Shown here: positions 27,815-61,182 of the stretch, piece by piece | Position numbering within the stretch: position 1 is the stretch's first letter | How the letters are laid out: every line of letters starts with the position of its first letter | Source of the DNA: Priestia megaterium NBRC 15308 = ATCC 14581 | Lineage (GTDB): Bacteria; Bacillota; Bacilli; Bacillales; Bacillaceae_H | Assembly (NCBI RefSeq): GCF_000832985.1 | Contig: NZ_CP009920.1 | Coordinates: forward strand, 1,674,001-1,738,000 | Direction: 5' to 3' | DNA: 64,000 nt | Translations under genes and position numbers: made by a program | The notes under the pieces: generated by a model | Told to the model about the DNA's origin: nothing | The model's database searches: none | The model's input: the letters and a program-made list of their open reading frames with translations, nothing else

Positions 27815-28045
27815 AAAAAACCCCTCATCCCTCAAACAAAGGGACGAGAGGTTGAATAAACTTCCCGCGGTACCACCCAAATTAGCACAATTATGTACTC
27901 ACTCATTTTCCTTAACGCGGATAGACGGCAAATGTTACTTTACTTCACATTTACAACTCCAAGGTGAGTTCATGAACGCTCGTTTGCTGACTCGCACCAC
28001 CCGTCAGCTCTCTTAGCTCGCTTCGTTCACTACTATTCCTTATCA
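27815..28045 (-). promoter_or_regulatory. T-box riboswitch of leuS with terminator
   Basis: The leftward leader contains the T-box core GGGTGGTACCGCGG (27865-27878), which pairs with the acceptor end of uncharged tRNA, and an intrinsic terminator at 27815-27852 (CCTCTCGTCCCT / AGGGATGAGGGG followed by TTTTTT). A stem I with the distal GGTGGTGCGAGTCAGC loop lies near 27990-28010. A CTC triplet in GAACTCACC is the likely leucine specifier codon. Uncharged tRNA-Leu would favour antitermination and leuS expression. Confidence 0.93.
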
Positions 28046-28216
28046 TAGTTTTTACATCATACTACCTTGTATTGTAAATAATATGTTCGTAAACTGCAAG
28101 TTGTTCAAGGGATTTTGTAAAAGTTTCTGCAATGCAGCACTGCTTTGTTGCTAAATCCTCTCTTTCATTCTTATATATGAACAACTTCTCCCAAAAACAT
28201 ACATCCACGGCCAAAC

Positions 28217-39211: not shown

Positions 39212-39388
39212 AAAAAAACCTTTCCTTGTATCGAGGAAAGGTATCAAATTCTACATAAGCCTTTCACTCTTATCGATCAAGGTTGTGCCCTTGCATCAGG
39301 TTAGCACCTTATCGTCTACACAAAAAAATGACGATGGTTGCTGGGTTTCATAGGGCCTGTCCCTCCACCAGCTCGGGATAAGAGAGTA
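39212..39388 (-). promoter_or_regulatory. SAM-I (S-box) riboswitch of metK
   Basis: Leftward leader with the S-box core: CTCTTATCCCGAGCTGG at its 5' end, then AGGGACAGGCCCTATGAAACC and CAGCAACC, AAGGTGCTAACCTG, then GATCGATAAGAGTGAA closing P1. A terminator (AACCTTTCCT / AGGAAAGGTT followed by TTTTTT) occupies 39212-39243. SAM binding would favour the terminator. Confidence 0.96.
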
Positions 39389-56176: not shown

Positions 56177-57220
56177 TTATAGATCATCAAATCCATTCGC
56201 ATCTGATGCTTTTGTATATTGTCTTGATTTCTGTTCAAAGAAATCCGTTTTCCCTAAATCTACCTCTTGATAAGCAATAATCCAACGAAGAGGATTTTCA
56301 ATCGGTGCTTCTGGGAAAGCAGCTCGGCCAAAGCCTAATTGATTACAGCGTTTATTAGCCATGTATTCAATATACTGCTGCAGTTCTTTCATCGTGATCC
56401 CGTCGAATTTTTCTCCGATAACAGATTCTGCCCATTCAATTTCAAGACGAGCTGCCTCTTGGAACGTTTCAACTACAAATGTTTCTAGCTCCTCCGTACG
56501 ATAAGCTGGATTTTCATTTAGGACTTCCTTGAAAATCTTTTCAAATAACCCAACGTGAAGCTGTTCATCACGATTGATATAGTTAATCATCGTAGATGTC
56601 GCCACCATCTTTTGATTTCTCGCAAGATTATAGAAGAAAGCAAATCCGCTATAGAAGAAAAGGCCTTCTAAAATAACATCATATACCATAGACTTCAAAA
56701 AGTTTTCAACCGTTGCTTCTTCGCTAAATGCTTTATATCCGTTTGTAATAAAGTCATTTCGAGCACGAAGCTTTTCGTCTGTGCGCCAGTATTCAAATAC
56801 TTCATCTTGTTTTCCTTTTGGTACAAGACTTGATAAAACATATGAATACGAATGATTATGAACCACTTCTTGCTGCGCTAAAATAATCATTAGAGCATTA
56901 ATCGAAGAGTCGGTTACATAATCAGCTACTTTGCTAGCATAATCTGATTGAATACTGTCCAGTAGCGCCAGCAGGCCAATAATTTTTAAAAAGCTCTCTT
57001 GTTCGTCAGCCGTTAACCGAGGGAACTGCTTAATATCTTGACCCATATTAATTTCAAACGGCGTCCAGAAGTTAGCTAGCATACGCTTGTATTTAGGGAA
57101 CGCCCATGAAAATCGGACGTCATCCCAGTTTAGAATATTTGAGCTCTTGCCGTTGATGATTCCTGTCGAACGGTTCGGAGCTGTTTCGTTCATTAATTCT
57201 CGTTTTAACATGCTTGTCAT
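56177..57220 (-). CDS. nrdB: ribonucleoside-diphosphate reductase class Ia, beta subunit
   Basis: Radical-generating subunit, 347 residues. All diiron ligands of the E. coli class Ia protein have counterparts: Asp in LLDSIQSDY, Glu and His in AQQEVVHNHSYSY, Glu in DVILEGLFFYSGF, Glu and His in NRDEQLHVGLF; the radical Tyr is in HNHSY. The sequence is NrdB-like, not NrdF-like, and no nrdI is adjacent. AAAGGAGTG precedes the ATG; it follows nrdA by 16 bases. Confidence 0.9.
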   Translation of the reverse strand: MTSMLKRELMNETAPNRSTGIINGKSSNILNWDDVRFSWAFPKYKRMLANFWTPFEINMGQDIKQFPRLTADEQESFLKIIGLLALLDSIQSDYASKVADYVTDSSINALMIILAQQEVVHNHSYSYVLSSLVPKGKQDEVFEYWRTDEKLRARNDFITNGYKAFSEEATVENFLKSMVYDVILEGLFFYSGFAFFYNLARNQKMVATSTMINYINRDEQLHVGLFEKIFKEVLNENPAYRTEELETFVVETFQEAARLEIEWAESVIGEKFDGITMKELQQYIEYMANKRCNQLGFGRAAFPEAPIENPLRWIIAYQEVDLGKTDFFEQKSRQYTKASDANGFDDL

Positions 57221-57236
57221 TAATTATTCACTCCTT

Positions 57237-59480
57237 TTAACTATGACAGCTTTCACATTCTTCAATCACTTCACTTGATGTTGAACGTACGTAGTAGGTC
57301 GTTTTTAACTTTTCTTTCCATGCCGTCATATGAAGATCCAGCAGCTCTTTTGCTCGGATATCATTTTGTACATATAAGTTGAATGAAATGGATTGATCAA
57401 TATGGCGCTGGCGCTTGGCGTTTTGCTTAATACTCCAGTGCTGATCAATTAAATAAACGGACTTATAATACCAGTTTGTTGCTGGCGATAAATCTGGTGC
57501 CGTCACTGGGATTTTATAGTTTTTCTTTTCCTCTGAATAAAACTTACGGAAAATCGGATCAATACTTGCAGTAGAACCCGCGATAATAGATGTTGATGAA
57601 TTAGGTGCTACAGCCATTAAGTAGCCATTTCTTATCCCATTGCTTTGAACTTCGTTACGCAGTTCACTCCACGCTTCGCTTGTGTATTTACGTGTTTCAA
57701 AATAAGCGCCTGACTCAAAATCTGAGCCTTTAAATAATGGATATGCACCTTTTTCTTTAGCTAAGTTCATGCTTGCCTGTACGGTTAAGTAAGCAATTTG
57801 CTCGTACAATTCATCGCAATATGCTACCGCTTCATCTGTTTCCCATGCTATTTTCTTTAAGGCAAGCAAATGGTTCCAACCAAATGTGCCAAGTCCTACT
57901 GCGCGGTACTTTTGGTTTGTTAGTTTTGCTTGAAGTACTGGCAAATCATTTAACTCAATAACGTTATCAAGCATGCGTACTTGAATTGGAATTAAACGTT
58001 CAAGCACATCTTCAGTTACGGCTCTCGCTAAGTTGATAGAAGAAAGATTACATACAACAAAATCGCCCGGATTCTTTGTAATAATAATTTTTCCGTCTTC
58101 CGTAATTTCCTCTGTTACGACCGTTGTGCTTTGGTTTTGCGTAATTTCTGTACATAAGTTGCTGCAGTAGATCATGCCCTCGTGGCGGTTTTGATTAGCT
58201 CGGTTAACCGTATCACGATAAAACATATAAGGCGTTCCGGTTTCAAGCTGGGAAAGCATAATGCGCTTGAAGATTTCAATAGCAGGTACTGTTTCTCTTG
58301 AAAGCTGTTCATTATTTACACACTCAGCGTAACGAGTGCGGAACGAACCGCTGCCTTCTTCTTCATCATAAAAATCTTCTAACGAGTAGCCCATCAGCGT
58401 ACGAACTTCGTGAGGATCGAATAAGTGCCAGTCTTCACGTGCCTCTACTTTTTCCATAAACAAATCTGGCAAACATACACCAGTGAATAAATCATGCGTG
58501 CGCTGACGTTCGTCACCATTGTTCAAACGCGCATCTAAGAATGAAAAGATGTCTTTGTGCCATACGTCTAAATATACGGCAATAGCTCCTTGGCGTTGAC
58601 CTAGCTGATCGACACTTACAGCCGTATTATTTAGCTGTTTCATCCATGGAATTGTTCCTGATGATACGCCTTTAAAACCTTTTATATCACTTCCTCGGCT
58701 TCTAATATGACCGAGGTAGACACCAATTCCGCCTCCATTTTTACTAAGCGTGGCCAAATCTGTATTGCTATCATAAATACCGCGTAAGCTGTCATCAATC
58801 GTATCAATAAAGCAGCTAGATAGCTGTCCGTAGCTCTTTCCTGCATTTGAAAGTGTTGGTGTGGCAACCGTCATATATAGACTAGAAAGCGCCCAATACG
58901 CTTCTTTTACTAATGCTGTTCGATTTTCTTTCTTTTCTTGAGACATCAGCGTCATAGCAATGATAAGAAAACGTTCTTGCGGTAATTCGTATACGCGCTT
59001 ATCATGTGATGTCGCTAAATAGCGATCTGCTAATGTCAACAATCCAATGTATGTAAATAAACGATCGCGTTCAGGAATAATGACTGAAGCAATTTCATTA
59101 ATTTCTTCTTCTGTATATGTTTTTAATAGCTGCTTATTATAAATGCCGATTTTTGTTAGTTCTTGAATAAGCTGATAAAACGAACCGTACTTCTCTTTTT
59201 TATCGTAACCTCGGTTGTCCGCTGCTTTTCGATATAGTTCGTTTAAGTAGACGTCTGCCGCTACGTACGTCCAATCGGGTTCTTCCATTGAAATACGCTC
59301 TAAGGCTGCCAAAATTAGGACGTTTGCAACCTTTTCGTCCGTCATATTTTCCTTTACTGTAACAGTTTGAATAACCTTTTCCTCATACAAAGAAAAATCA
59401 AGCTGCGTAAATTCTTTTTTTAAACGTTCAATATATGCAGTTAATTCATGTAGAATTGTAGGCTTTAATGTATTCACCAT
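57237..59480 (-). CDS. nrdA: ribonucleoside-diphosphate reductase class Ia, alpha subunit
   Basis: Catalytic subunit reducing NDPs to dNDPs, 747 residues. Active-site cysteines are in GQLSSCFIDT (about 217) and NLCTEI (about 435), with VVCNLSSINLA for the third. The C-terminal radical pathway tyrosines are in KTTYYVRS, followed by the shuttle pair CESC. An N-terminal ATP-cone is not recognisable, so dATP inhibition of the classic type is doubtful. AGAGGAGCC fixes ATG 59480. The leader holds a cobalamin riboswitch and NrdR sites. Confidence 0.92.
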   Translation of the reverse strand: MVNTLKPTILHELTAYIERLKKEFTQLDFSLYEEKVIQTVTVKENMTDEKVANVLILAALERISMEEPDWTYVAADVYLNELYRKAADNRGYDKKEKYGSFYQLIQELTKIGIYNKQLLKTYTEEEINEIASVIIPERDRLFTYIGLLTLADRYLATSHDKRVYELPQERFLIIAMTLMSQEKKENRTALVKEAYWALSSLYMTVATPTLSNAGKSYGQLSSCFIDTIDDSLRGIYDSNTDLATLSKNGGGIGVYLGHIRSRGSDIKGFKGVSSGTIPWMKQLNNTAVSVDQLGQRQGAIAVYLDVWHKDIFSFLDARLNNGDERQRTHDLFTGVCLPDLFMEKVEAREDWHLFDPHEVRTLMGYSLEDFYDEEEGSGSFRTRYAECVNNEQLSRETVPAIEIFKRIMLSQLETGTPYMFYRDTVNRANQNRHEGMIYCSNLCTEITQNQSTTVVTEEITEDGKIIITKNPGDFVVCNLSSINLARAVTEDVLERLIPIQVRMLDNVIELNDLPVLQAKLTNQKYRAVGLGTFGWNHLLALKKIAWETDEAVAYCDELYEQIAYLTVQASMNLAKEKGAYPLFKGSDFESGAYFETRKYTSEAWSELRNEVQSNGIRNGYLMAVAPNSSTSIIAGSTASIDPIFRKFYSEEKKNYKIPVTAPDLSPATNWYYKSVYLIDQHWSIKQNAKRQRHIDQSISFNLYVQNDIRAKELLDLHMTAWKEKLKTTYYVRSTSSEVIEECESCHS

Positions 59481-59510
59481 AAATATGGCTCCTCTCTTCA
59501 CTTCAAAATA

Positions 59511-59540
59511 AAAAATCGCTCACCGTACCTCGGTGAGCGA
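59511..59540 (-). terminator. regulatory terminator in the nrdAB leader
   Basis: TCGCTCACCG / CGGTGAGCGA stem; leftward it is followed by TTTTTTATTTT, 31 bases before nrdA. Upstream leader segments GAGCGA and GGTGAG can pair with its 5' arm and are candidate antiterminator strands. Confidence 0.85.
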
Positions 59541-59624
59541 ATAGAACGAAGATAGAAGAAGACACTAAGTCTTTTCTCAATCCTCGCTCTACCCTCTCAC
59601 CTCCCGAAGAAGATAAAACGACAT

Positions 59625-59787
59625 AAAAAAGGCAGGTCTCCTGACTTATGCTTCTTTTTACTTTAAGGCCTTCCCATGATGTTTACTCACAGTGGATCTC
59701 CTTATTTCATCAGCATTCACAGTTGCGGGAACAGCTTTGGATTTTCACCAAATTCCCTTTTAAGTCTTTTTATCAGACACCTTTTTC
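59625..59787 (-). promoter_or_regulatory. cobalamin riboswitch controlling nrdAB
   Basis: The leftward strand carries the B12-element in order: AAAAAGGTGTCTGAT, AAAAGGGAAT, GGTGAAAATCC, AGCTGTTCCCGCAACTGT (the B12 box core), ATGCTGATGAAATAAGGAG, CCACTGTG, GGGAAGG, then AAGTCAGGAGACCTGCC. It lies between the nrdA promoter and a terminator. Cobalamin binding would reduce nrdAB expression. Confidence 0.95.
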
Positions 59788-59795
59788 ACTGGAAA

Positions 59796-59811
59796 ACACA
59801 AAATATAGTAT
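59796..59811 (-). promoter_or_regulatory. NrdR box, proximal
   Basis: Minus strand ATACTATATTTTGTGT, 14 of 16 to the NrdR box ACACWATATATWGTGT; it covers the -10 element TACTAT of the nrdAB promoter. Confidence 0.75.
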
Positions 59812-59833
59812 TTTATTATAGATTCCAAAACAA
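59805..59833 (-). promoter_or_regulatory. predicted sigma-A promoter of nrdAB
   Basis: Minus strand TTGTTT and TACTAT with a 17-base spacer, directly upstream of the riboswitch. Confidence 0.7.
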
Positions 59834-59843
59834 CATATTGTGT
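59828..59843 (-). promoter_or_regulatory. NrdR box, distal
   Basis: Minus strand ACACAATATGTTGTTT, 14 of 16 to the NrdR consensus. It overlaps the -35 element and lies exactly 32 bases from the proximal box, the spacing known for tandem NrdR sites. Confidence 0.78.
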
Positions 59844-60043
59844 TATGTTATAAACACATTATATAGGACAACTTAGAAAACTATCAACCTATTTTCAAAA
59901 ATAATTTTGTTTTTTACGATAAAACTCTTCGACTTTTTTCATCAAACTATTCCATCATAACATGTTTTGACACGCTTGATGGAACAATGTGCTCTTTTTA
60001 AAAAATTTGTCCTATTTTTCTACTAAACATTGACAACCTCAAT

Positions 60044-60080
60044 AAAAAAACCGTTTTTCATCAAAAAACGGTTTTTAATT
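60044..60080 (-). terminator. menC terminator
   Basis: AAAAAAACCG(TTTTT) / (AAAAA)CGGTTTTT stem-loop at the end of the men operon. Confidence 0.85.
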
Positions 60081-61182
60081 ATTTGTATTCTTTTTCAAAT
60101 GATTTGATTGTTTTGATAAACTTTTTATCAATATCGTATCCTATCCCCGGTTTTCCCTTCACCTTTATTACTCCGGCTTCTACCTCTACTTCGGGCTTAA
60201 TAATATCTTTTTCCCAATAGCGAGACGACGCAGAAATATCACCTGGTATCGTGAAAGAAGGGAGTGTGGCAAGGGCGATGTTATGAGCTCGTGAAATCCC
60301 TGCTTCTAACATTCCTCCAACCCAAAGTCTTACACCATGCCGGACGCATAAATCATGAATTTGCTTTGCTACGGACATTCCGCCAACTCGCCCGATTTTC
60401 ACATTGATAATCTTACAGCTTTCTTGTTCGATTGCATGACGTGCATCTTCACAGCTCACAATACTTTCATCTAAGCAAATTGGCGTCTTTATTTGCTTTT
60501 GTAACAATCGATGATCAAGGATATCATCAGAACTTAACGGCTGTTCGATCATCATTAAATTCAATTCATCTAGTTTCTTTAATGAATCACTATCGCTTAA
60601 AGTATAGGCTGAATTGGCATCAGCCATAAGAGGAATGCTTGGAAATTCATCTCGAATTTGTTTCAGTAGCTCATAGTCAGCACCCGGCTTAATTTTCACT
60701 TTAAAGCGCTTATAGCCATCTTTCATGTAAGTCTTTATTTGTTCTTTCATTACGGAAATGTCATTTAAGCCAACTACCACTCCAGCTTCTACAGCAGACC
60801 TTACTCCGCCAATTACTTCAGATAACGGCTTGTTTTGCCGCTTTGCATACAAATCCCATACAGCACAGTCCAAAGCTGCTTTAGCCATGTTATTTCGCTT
60901 TAGAGGTTTGAATAACTTTTGAACATCCTCTGGTTTTTGAAGCTGCTGATGAAGAAGCGAGGGAATTAAAAAATCGTCTAACATATGAAAACATGTCTGA
61001 ATCGTTTCTTCCGTATACCAAGGAGATGAAAAAGCAACGACTTCTCCCCACCCTGTAAATCCTTGTTCATCTTCTACTTCAAGCAAAATCAATTCTCGAT
61101 CCTGTACTGTACCATAGCTTGTTGAAAAAGGAGAAAGAAGCTTCATGTCAATTTTATAAAGATGTACTTTTTTTATAATCAT
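60079..61182 (-). CDS. menC: o-succinylbenzoate synthase
   Basis: Enolase-superfamily enzyme that dehydrates SHCHC to o-succinylbenzoate in menaquinone synthesis, 367 residues. Catalytic Lys in KRFKVKIKPG (about 164), metal ligands in LMADANSAYT (Asp about 190), MIEQPLSSDD (Glu about 214) and LDESIVS (Asp about 239), and the second Lys in INVKIGRVGG (about 263). AAAGGAGC precedes the ATG; 3 bases separate it from menE. Last gene of the operon. Confidence 0.95.
   Translation of the reverse strand: MIIKKVHLYKIDMKLLSPFSTSYGTVQDRELILLEVEDEQGFTGWGEVVAFSSPWYTEETIQTCFHMLDDFLIPSLLHQQLQKPEDVQKLFKPLKRNNMAKAALDCAVWDLYAKRQNKPLSEVIGGVRSAVEAGVVVGLNDISVMKEQIKTYMKDGYKRFKVKIKPGADYELLKQIRDEFPSIPLMADANSAYTLSDSDSLKKLDELNLMMIEQPLSSDDILDHRLLQKQIKTPICLDESIVSCEDARHAIEQESCKIINVKIGRVGGMSVAKQIHDLCVRHGVRLWVGGMLEAGISRAHNIALATLPSFTIPGDISASSRYWEKDIIKPEVEVEAGVIKVKGKPGIGYDIDKKFIKTIKSFEKEYK

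Follow-up and report, generated by a model that had tools for sequence, protein, structure and literature searches.

Priestia megaterium is a soil bacterium in which a class I ribonucleotide reductase, an oxygen-dependent enzyme, makes DNA building blocks. The nrdAB genes coding for this enzyme in P. megaterium NBRC 15308 = ATCC 14581 are preceded by a leader that combines a cobalamin (B12) riboswitch with two boxes resembling the sites of the regulator NrdR, and this leader, located in a stretch of 64,000 nucleotides (positions 1,674,001 to 1,738,000 of contig NZ_CP009920.1, called here the window), is the subject of the present analysis. In Streptomyces coelicolor, the class Ia genes nrdABS reportedly carry a coenzyme B12 riboswitch, a finding attributed to Borovok et al. 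in 2006, and are also said to be controlled by NrdR; that organism belongs to another phylum and its leader is a different one.

Several other systems have been described in bacteria. In Propionibacterium acnes, an NrdR box is reported at the nrdAB promoter and a cobalamin riboswitch in the nrdAB 5' untranslated region (UTR), with nrdJ, coding for a B12-dependent class II reductase, standing elsewhere; in RNA-seq of this species, a large share of nrdAB transcription seems to stop ahead of the first gene (PMC3848588). For P. megaterium DSM319, a review counts eight cobalamin riboswitches, with metE and nrdEF among the genes carrying them, and NrdJ is listed there as well (PMC8390425). An adenosylcobalamin (AdoCbl)-nrdAB riboswitch is also named for Bacillus methanolicus MGA3 in a passage based on the inspection of 5' UTRs defined by RNA-seq (PMC4342826). 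As early as 2004, it was proposed for delta-proteobacteria that, in genomes with NrdJ, the reductase that does not need B12 is repressed by the vitamin (PMC545781).

Proposed Control of the nrdAB Operon

The leader of the window covers about 400 bases of the minus strand between menC (60079-61182) and nrdA, spanning 59480-59887, and all of its elements given below lie on that strand. Very probably, the class I nrdAB operon is governed by a two-input off switch, NrdR being one input and the cobalamin riboswitch the other. Transcription would proceed from a TTGATA-TATAAT promoter. NrdR loaded with dATP/ATP would sit on the box pair just 3' of the -10 element, covering the start site and the first transcribed bases, and, at high deoxynucleotide levels, would in this way block initiation or escape. 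A polymerase getting past would make the aptamer, in which the binding of adenosylcobalamin would stabilise the P13 hairpin visible in the sequence. P13 would then keep the GGUGAG...GAGGAU strand from the antiterminator, leaving the terminator free to form and to halt the polymerase ahead of nrdA. In the absence of cobalamin, the 5' arm of the terminator would be held in the 21-pair antiterminator, and nrdAB would be read. This device would serve to turn off the oxygen-dependent enzyme, which needs no B12, when the vitamin allows NrdJ to work; the class I enzyme is probably off when B12 lets this second enzyme take over.

Aptamer and Expression Platform

The aptamer (59614..59799) matches the Rfam family RF00174 with 119.9 bits, for a gathering threshold of 31.5, over all 189 model positions (1-189). 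This confirms the complete cobalamin riboswitch claimed in a preliminary description of the same DNA, in which a covariance check had been proposed. The intrinsic terminator announced there is recovered as well. It reads UCGCUCACCG-AGGUA-CGGUGAGCGA plus a U tract (59509..59540, -17.6 kcal/mol), its stem (59540-59516) being made of 10 pairs, seven of them G-C, followed by TTTTTTATTT; it is the only terminator-like site between 59470 and 60080, a region for which shuffled sequences give a mean of 0.2.

The platform contains alternative helices. A P13-type hairpin (59590..59615), formed by UAUCUUC (59615-59609) and GAGGGUA (59596-59590) around a loop with UUCGGG, is the proposed ligand-stabilised anti-antiterminator. 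The antiterminator is built from a 5' strand, GGUGAGAGGGUAGAGCGAGGAU (59580..59601), overlapping L13 and the 3' strand of P13, and a 3' strand, AUCUUCGUUCUAUUCGCUCACC (59532..59553), overlapping the 5' arm of the terminator. Written as GGUGAG-A-GGGUAGAGCGAGGAU with AUCUUCGUUCUAUUC-G-CUCACC, it is a 22-nt helix with 21 pairs and one mismatch (-38.2 kcal/mol), and its score is reached by 0/2000 shuffles; P13 alone amounts to -6.7 kcal/mol. The 3' half of P13 is part of the antiterminator 5' strand, and the far end of the antiterminator lies within the terminator 5' arm. Judged from sequence and folding energies, the P13, antiterminator, and terminator helices are mutually exclusive, as expected for a switch turned off by its ligand.

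Other leaders of the order were compared. The motif CGGG immediately follows the aptamer in 62/62 leaders, and in all 62 it is flanked by strands forming a helix of 6 or more positions, with one mismatch tolerated. It likely pairs with CCCG of the aptamer core, both motifs being invariant among the aligned leaders and giving no covariation. The terminator scan is positive for 57/62 leaders, L067 being weak (-4.2 kcal/mol), and misses L034, L035, L083, L105, and L112. When strands were paired within and between genomes in 51 leaders, near-identical relatives being dropped, own strands scored better than those of other genomes for the antiterminator (27.3 vs 21.0) and for P13 (18.6 vs 16.8), a difference reached by 0/2000 permutations in each case. 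An anti-antiterminator closed by a UUCG tetraloop, the form seen in the minimum-energy fold calculated for the window platform, was dropped as a general form because, by eye, it does not form in genomes G005 and G006 (L034, L035).

Promoter and NrdR-like Boxes

The best promoter of the leader (59858..59887) consists of a -35 element TTGATA (59887-59882), an 18-nt spacer, and a -10 element TATAAT (59863-59858), matching the consensus at 11/12 positions, and it is the sole promoter-like site of the minus strand in the consensus scan. Its -10 element ends 14 bp upstream of box 1. Box 1, ACACAATATGTTGTTT (59828..59843), and box 2, ATACTATATTTTGTGT (59796..59811), the latter overlapping the first 4 aptamer-match positions, both agree with the NrdR consensus at 14/16 positions. 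They are separated by 32 bp from start to start, as stated in the preliminary description, leaving 16 bp between them close to the promoter. The same description had put the two boxes exactly on the -35 and -10 elements, a placement that has to be corrected, as the consensus scan, the family alignment, and a profile of 52 leaders cleared of near-identical relatives all put the best, conserved promoter upstream of box 1. In the alignment, this holds for 16/16 family leaders (9 to 11/12 matches), with a shifted promoter, TTGTAA-17-TAGAAT, in G005 and G006. A weaker NrdR-like sequence, GTCCTATATAATGTGT (59869-59854, 12/16), overlaps the -10 of the upstream promoter and stands 26 bp from box 1.

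Across the order, a box pair with a spacing of 30-33 bp, the only spacings allowed in the search, adjoins the aptamer in 61/62 leaders, L103 being without a pair. The spacing is 32 bp in 36 of these pairs and 31 bp in 23, and the pairs end from 9 bases inside to 15 bases before the aptamer match. The boxes thus mostly occupy the space between promoter and aptamer.

Co-occurrence of the Riboswitch and NrdJ

Within the family, an nrdA of this type, nrdJ, the riboswitch, and the box pair are all found in 16/16 genomes. Because the family offers no variation, the comparison was widened to the order, for which the set comprised 249 genomes, 191 with NrdA and 199 with NrdJ over the cut-off. Genomes were taken as NrdJ-negative when they had NrdA at E 1e-200 but lacked NrdJ at E 1e-60; there are 11 among the 249, of which nine, carrying 10 nrdA genes, were tested, G073 and G132 being left out. 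Against them stand 50 NrdJ-positive genomes, picked by hand from the NrdA matches listed, with one to four per family, before the leaders were searched. The set excludes genomes with a best NrdJ value from 1e-60 to 1e-77. In G023, G043, G116, G117, G184, and G186, the best NrdJ piece reaches only 1e-91 to 1e-97, the same range as in G011 and G015, whose nrdJ consists of split genes.

An Rfam riboswitch lies at most 1.3 kb from nrdA in 46/50 NrdJ-positive genomes vs 0/9 NrdJ-negative ones (0/10 genes; Fisher 6e-8). The aptamer ends no more than 400 nt from the nrdA match in 43 of the 46; in G092, G044, and G045, the distance is 652 to 780 nt and an intervening reading frame is present. In two further genomes, G089 and G147, the riboswitch is more distant (2.5 kb upstream) and precedes metE, which is directly followed by nrdA and nrdB. 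Counting these two, which was done after the riboswitch had been seen further upstream, a riboswitch precedes nrdA or its operon in 48/50 NrdJ-positive vs 0/9 NrdJ-negative genomes (Fisher 4e-9, uncorrected for kinship). All nine NrdJ-negative genomes and the four misses were searched in full for riboswitches, and a distant riboswitch therefore had an equal chance of being found in both groups. Thus, the riboswitch tracks the B12-dependent enzyme, kinship being uncorrected, and this association supports the earlier proposal that, in cells with a class II enzyme, B12 turns off the B12-independent reductase. The contrast recurs inside the three families in which both states were tested (f14, f36, and f42), with 7/8 vs 0/7. 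It is also seen inside one genus (g61). There, G089 combines MetH and NrdJ with a riboswitch in front of metE-nrdAB, whereas in G171 and G196 no MetH or NrdJ matches and no riboswitch at this place were found, metE still adjoining nrdA.

The loci with metE deserve a description of their own. In L115:1399-7573 (-) and L116:1493-7472 (-), metE, nrdA, and nrdB follow a single cobalamin riboswitch and apparently form one operon, metE and nrdA being 30 and 12 bases apart; two B12-independent isozymes are therefore placed under one sensor. In L117 and L118, which belong to the genus of L115 and have no MetH or NrdJ matches, metE and nrdA are adjacent and the riboswitch is absent. Besides, frames of 155 and 169 amino acids on the nrdA strand separate the riboswitch from nrdA in L109 and L111; they resemble, by eye, an acyl-CoA thioesterase, and L073 holds a 54-amino-acid fragment of similar sequence.

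Among named relatives, from Priestia to Geobacillus, Metabacillus, and Halalkalibacter, 78/80 loci have the riboswitch ahead of nrdA. This count comes from a covariance model built on 28 leaders, some of the 80 being evidently records used for the model. The two misses are L175, with only 358 bases before the match, and L189. A regular expression for the B12 core retrieved only 48/80 and was abandoned as too strict, missing for instance L127, apparently the counterpart of the Rfam-positive L094.

The NrdR layer is distributed differently. Box pairs for which 0/200 shuffles are as good are kept at 7/10 nrdA genes of the NrdJ-negative genomes, those without such a pair being the second nrdA copy of G234 and the nrdA genes located behind metE in G171 and G196. 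Pairs of this quality are also kept at G161 and G048, two NrdJ-positive genomes without a riboswitch on nrdA. In the genomes tested, the riboswitch layer is thus found only together with NrdJ, whereas the NrdR layer is often kept without it and, as far as these comparisons indicate, is retained more widely than the vitamin layer, though not everywhere.

Alternative Explanations

The promoter could instead be formed by hexamers located in the two boxes (TTGTTT-17-TACTAT), in which case NrdR and the polymerase would compete for one set of bases and transcription would start a few bases before the aptamer. Such a geometry has a fitting spacing of 17 bp and finds some echo in the profile of 52 leaders, where a second, smaller peak places a -10 inside box 2 (30 to 39 from box 1) in 8/52 at 9/12 matches or more and in 3 at 10/12 or more. 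It is nevertheless unlikely, as the hexamers reach only 7/12 in the window by hand count, under the scan threshold, the TTGTTT half varies in several relatives that keep box 1, and the box cores are intrinsically TATAAT-like. Moreover, the upstream site yields the bigger peak, with a -10 at -20 to -11 from box 1 in 23/52 leaders (at least 9/12) and in 12 (at least 10/12). At the same level of 9/12 or more, the remainder of the profile holds 0-3 leaders per ten-base window from -90 to -31, 8 at -30 to -21, 5 at -10 to -1, 1-5 per window from 0 to 29, 4 at 40 to 49, and 0 beyond. Because of the weaker peak, an extra promoter inside box 2 may exist. It is hardly credible that the boxes are chance matches and NrdR inactive here, even if the region is A+T-rich and 11/61 pairs score below 24 of 32, a level also attained by shuffles of the window. 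Indeed, the pair of the window scores 28, which 0/2000 dinucleotide shuffles of a 280-nt stretch reach (maximum 24), and pairs recur at the same place beside the aptamer in nearly every leader, 59 of them with a spacing of 31 or 32 bp. The gap of 16 bp also agrees with the 15-16 bp that the relevant passage of PMC12051234 gives as common between NrdR boxes, which counts against chance as well. The tight joint between operator and aptamer, within about 15 nt in 61/62 leaders, is in turn the basis of a bolder view, in which both form one conserved cassette and NrdR, seated on the bases transcribed first and acting as a roadblock or pause, would set the rate of aptamer synthesis. This is distinctly unlikely; if true, the dATP signal would tune the vitamin sensor rather than merely add to it.

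As for the vitamin layer, the riboswitch might have been inherited together with nrdAB, untied to NrdJ and merely marking users of B12. Its wide occurrence in the named loci is in line with this view, and kinship by itself could yield much of the association. Co-inheritance remains very unlikely in view of the 48/50 vs 0/9 distribution and of the contrast found in three families. Six of the nine NrdJ-negative genomes do have a cobalamin riboswitch elsewhere and none near nrdA; two of them, G052 (whose riboswitch is partial, 38.6 bits) and G056, retain MetH, whereas the NrdJ-positive G185 carries the nrdA riboswitch without a MetH match. The two-input switch is itself weakened by several observations besides kinship. 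Whole-genome searches of G161 and G048, both NrdJ-positive, gave no riboswitch on nrdA. P13 is weak alone, its score in the window being reached by 12/2000 shuffles, and the own P13 partner ranks first in 3/51 rows (12/51 for the antiterminator). In the metE-nrdAB operons of G089 and G147, the best box pair is poor (27/500 and 5/500 shuffles as good), and that of G147 stands 82 bases from the aptamer instead of adjoining it. Because these operons are without a good NrdR pair, confidence in the two-input switch was trimmed slightly.

Class I and Class II Genes of the Genome

The gene nrdA (57237..59480, minus strand) codes for the large subunit of 747 amino acids, recognized by NF006665 (1399.2 bits, cut-off 1057) and by Pfam, and nrdB (56177..57220, minus strand), 16 bp away, for the small subunit of 347 amino acids (NF007184, 406.5 bits, cut-off 310; PF00268). 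By reading the sequence, a Shine-Dalgarno-like GAGAGGAG (59489..59496) is located 8 nt 5' of the nrdA ATG at 59480. Of the preliminary assignment to class Ia, the class is confirmed, its two subunits scoring above cut-off; as to the subclass, the models for class 1a (NF006578) and class 1b (TIGR04170) both fall below cut-off. The models favour a large subunit of the PRK09209 type, and no ATP-cone was found in NrdA with Pfam. The nearest named nrdA is that of Priestia aryabhattai, with 99% identity, in a list that may omit records of the window's own genome; this fits P. megaterium or a close relative.

The genome (G000) also contains the class II reductase that had been anticipated. Its gene nrdJ is found at C6:1291177-1293540, with 573.9 bits for NrdJ_Z when in-frame neighbours are included (cut-off 399.95), and is interrupted by a group I intron (RF00028, 74.8 bits; L014:4765-5134 (-), G000:C6 ~1292764-1293133). 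According to tblastn, nrdJ is split in 8/16 family genomes, the breaks falling near residues 265-277 and 484, and Rfam detects a group I intron in 7 of those 8; the enzyme behind the B12 switch therefore requires splicing in these strains. The nrdA of G003 and G004 also appears as separate pieces in the search, probably owing to introns too. A single NrdR, with Zn ribbon and ATP-cone (PF22811 and PF03477), is encoded at C6:1604618-1605058 (236 bits). Searches of this genome found no second NrdA/NrdE, no NrdD, and no NrdI.

A weaker NrdR-like pair precedes nrdJ, 94-104 bp before the start in 14/16 family genomes and 47 bp in G005/G006. Compared with single-base shuffles, it is matched by 0/300 in five genomes, by 2-11/300 in nine (10/300 in G000), by 87/300 in G010, and by 179/300 in G008. 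It is likely, from these sites, that nrdJ is under NrdR control, and NrdR may then control both reductases and the riboswitch only one.

In total, G000 has eight cobalamin riboswitches, the others preceding metE, a cbi operon, and other probable cobalamin genes, as judged from neighbouring frames read by hand; MetE is confirmed by Pfam, and MetH is also present. Ahead of metE (L018:8194-8572 (-)), an S-adenosylmethionine (SAM) riboswitch is followed by a cobalamin riboswitch, a tandem known from elsewhere. Two tandem cobalamin riboswitches, about 120 bases apart, stand ahead of the cbi operon (L017:10259-10735 (-)). Elsewhere in the window, a T-box leader (27837-28055, minus strand, 141.4 bits) and a SAM riboswitch (39267-39384, minus strand, 74.6 bits) are present.

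Comparison with Described Systems

Regulation of this kind is already known, and the leader is well built but ordinary for its order. P. megaterium DSM319 and B. methanolicus MGA3 carry the same class of riboswitch on class I nrd genes, and the eight riboswitches counted in the review passage on DSM319 (PMC8390425) equal the count obtained here. This passage calls the genes nrdEF, whereas the models used here favour a PRK09209-type large subunit. The passages dealing with the two strains (PMC8390425, PMC4342826) mention neither NrdR boxes nor a link between the riboswitch and NrdJ, and the listed titles and abstract openings of open-licence papers yielded nothing on NrdR boxes joined with this riboswitch in Bacillales.

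The relevant passages on P. acnes follow the same reasoning, B12 shifting the cell to NrdJ, but this species is an actinobacterium in which a single box overlaps the nrdAB promoter, nrdR and nrdJ share one operon, and nrdDG also has a riboswitch (PMC3848588). The principle proposed for delta-proteobacteria is likewise the same, except that the B12 element lies on nrdDG, and the term NrdR is absent from that text (PMC545781). The layering of a dATP sensor and a vitamin sensor, which had been presented as special, is thus widespread in the order and has an equivalent in P. acnes.

As far as these sources go, the riboswitch half is in print for P. megaterium and its pairing with an NrdR box for an actinobacterium. 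The present computation adds a corrected promoter geometry, a fixed operator-aptamer joint, the association of NrdJ with the riboswitch, and metE-nrdAB operons apparently headed by one riboswitch. The corrected position of NrdR on these leaders changes the mode of repression to be expected. The order provides a clean comparative case, in which one enzyme is found under the riboswitch only in genomes that also have its B12-dependent partner, and the contrasts within families and within one genus amount to natural experiments.

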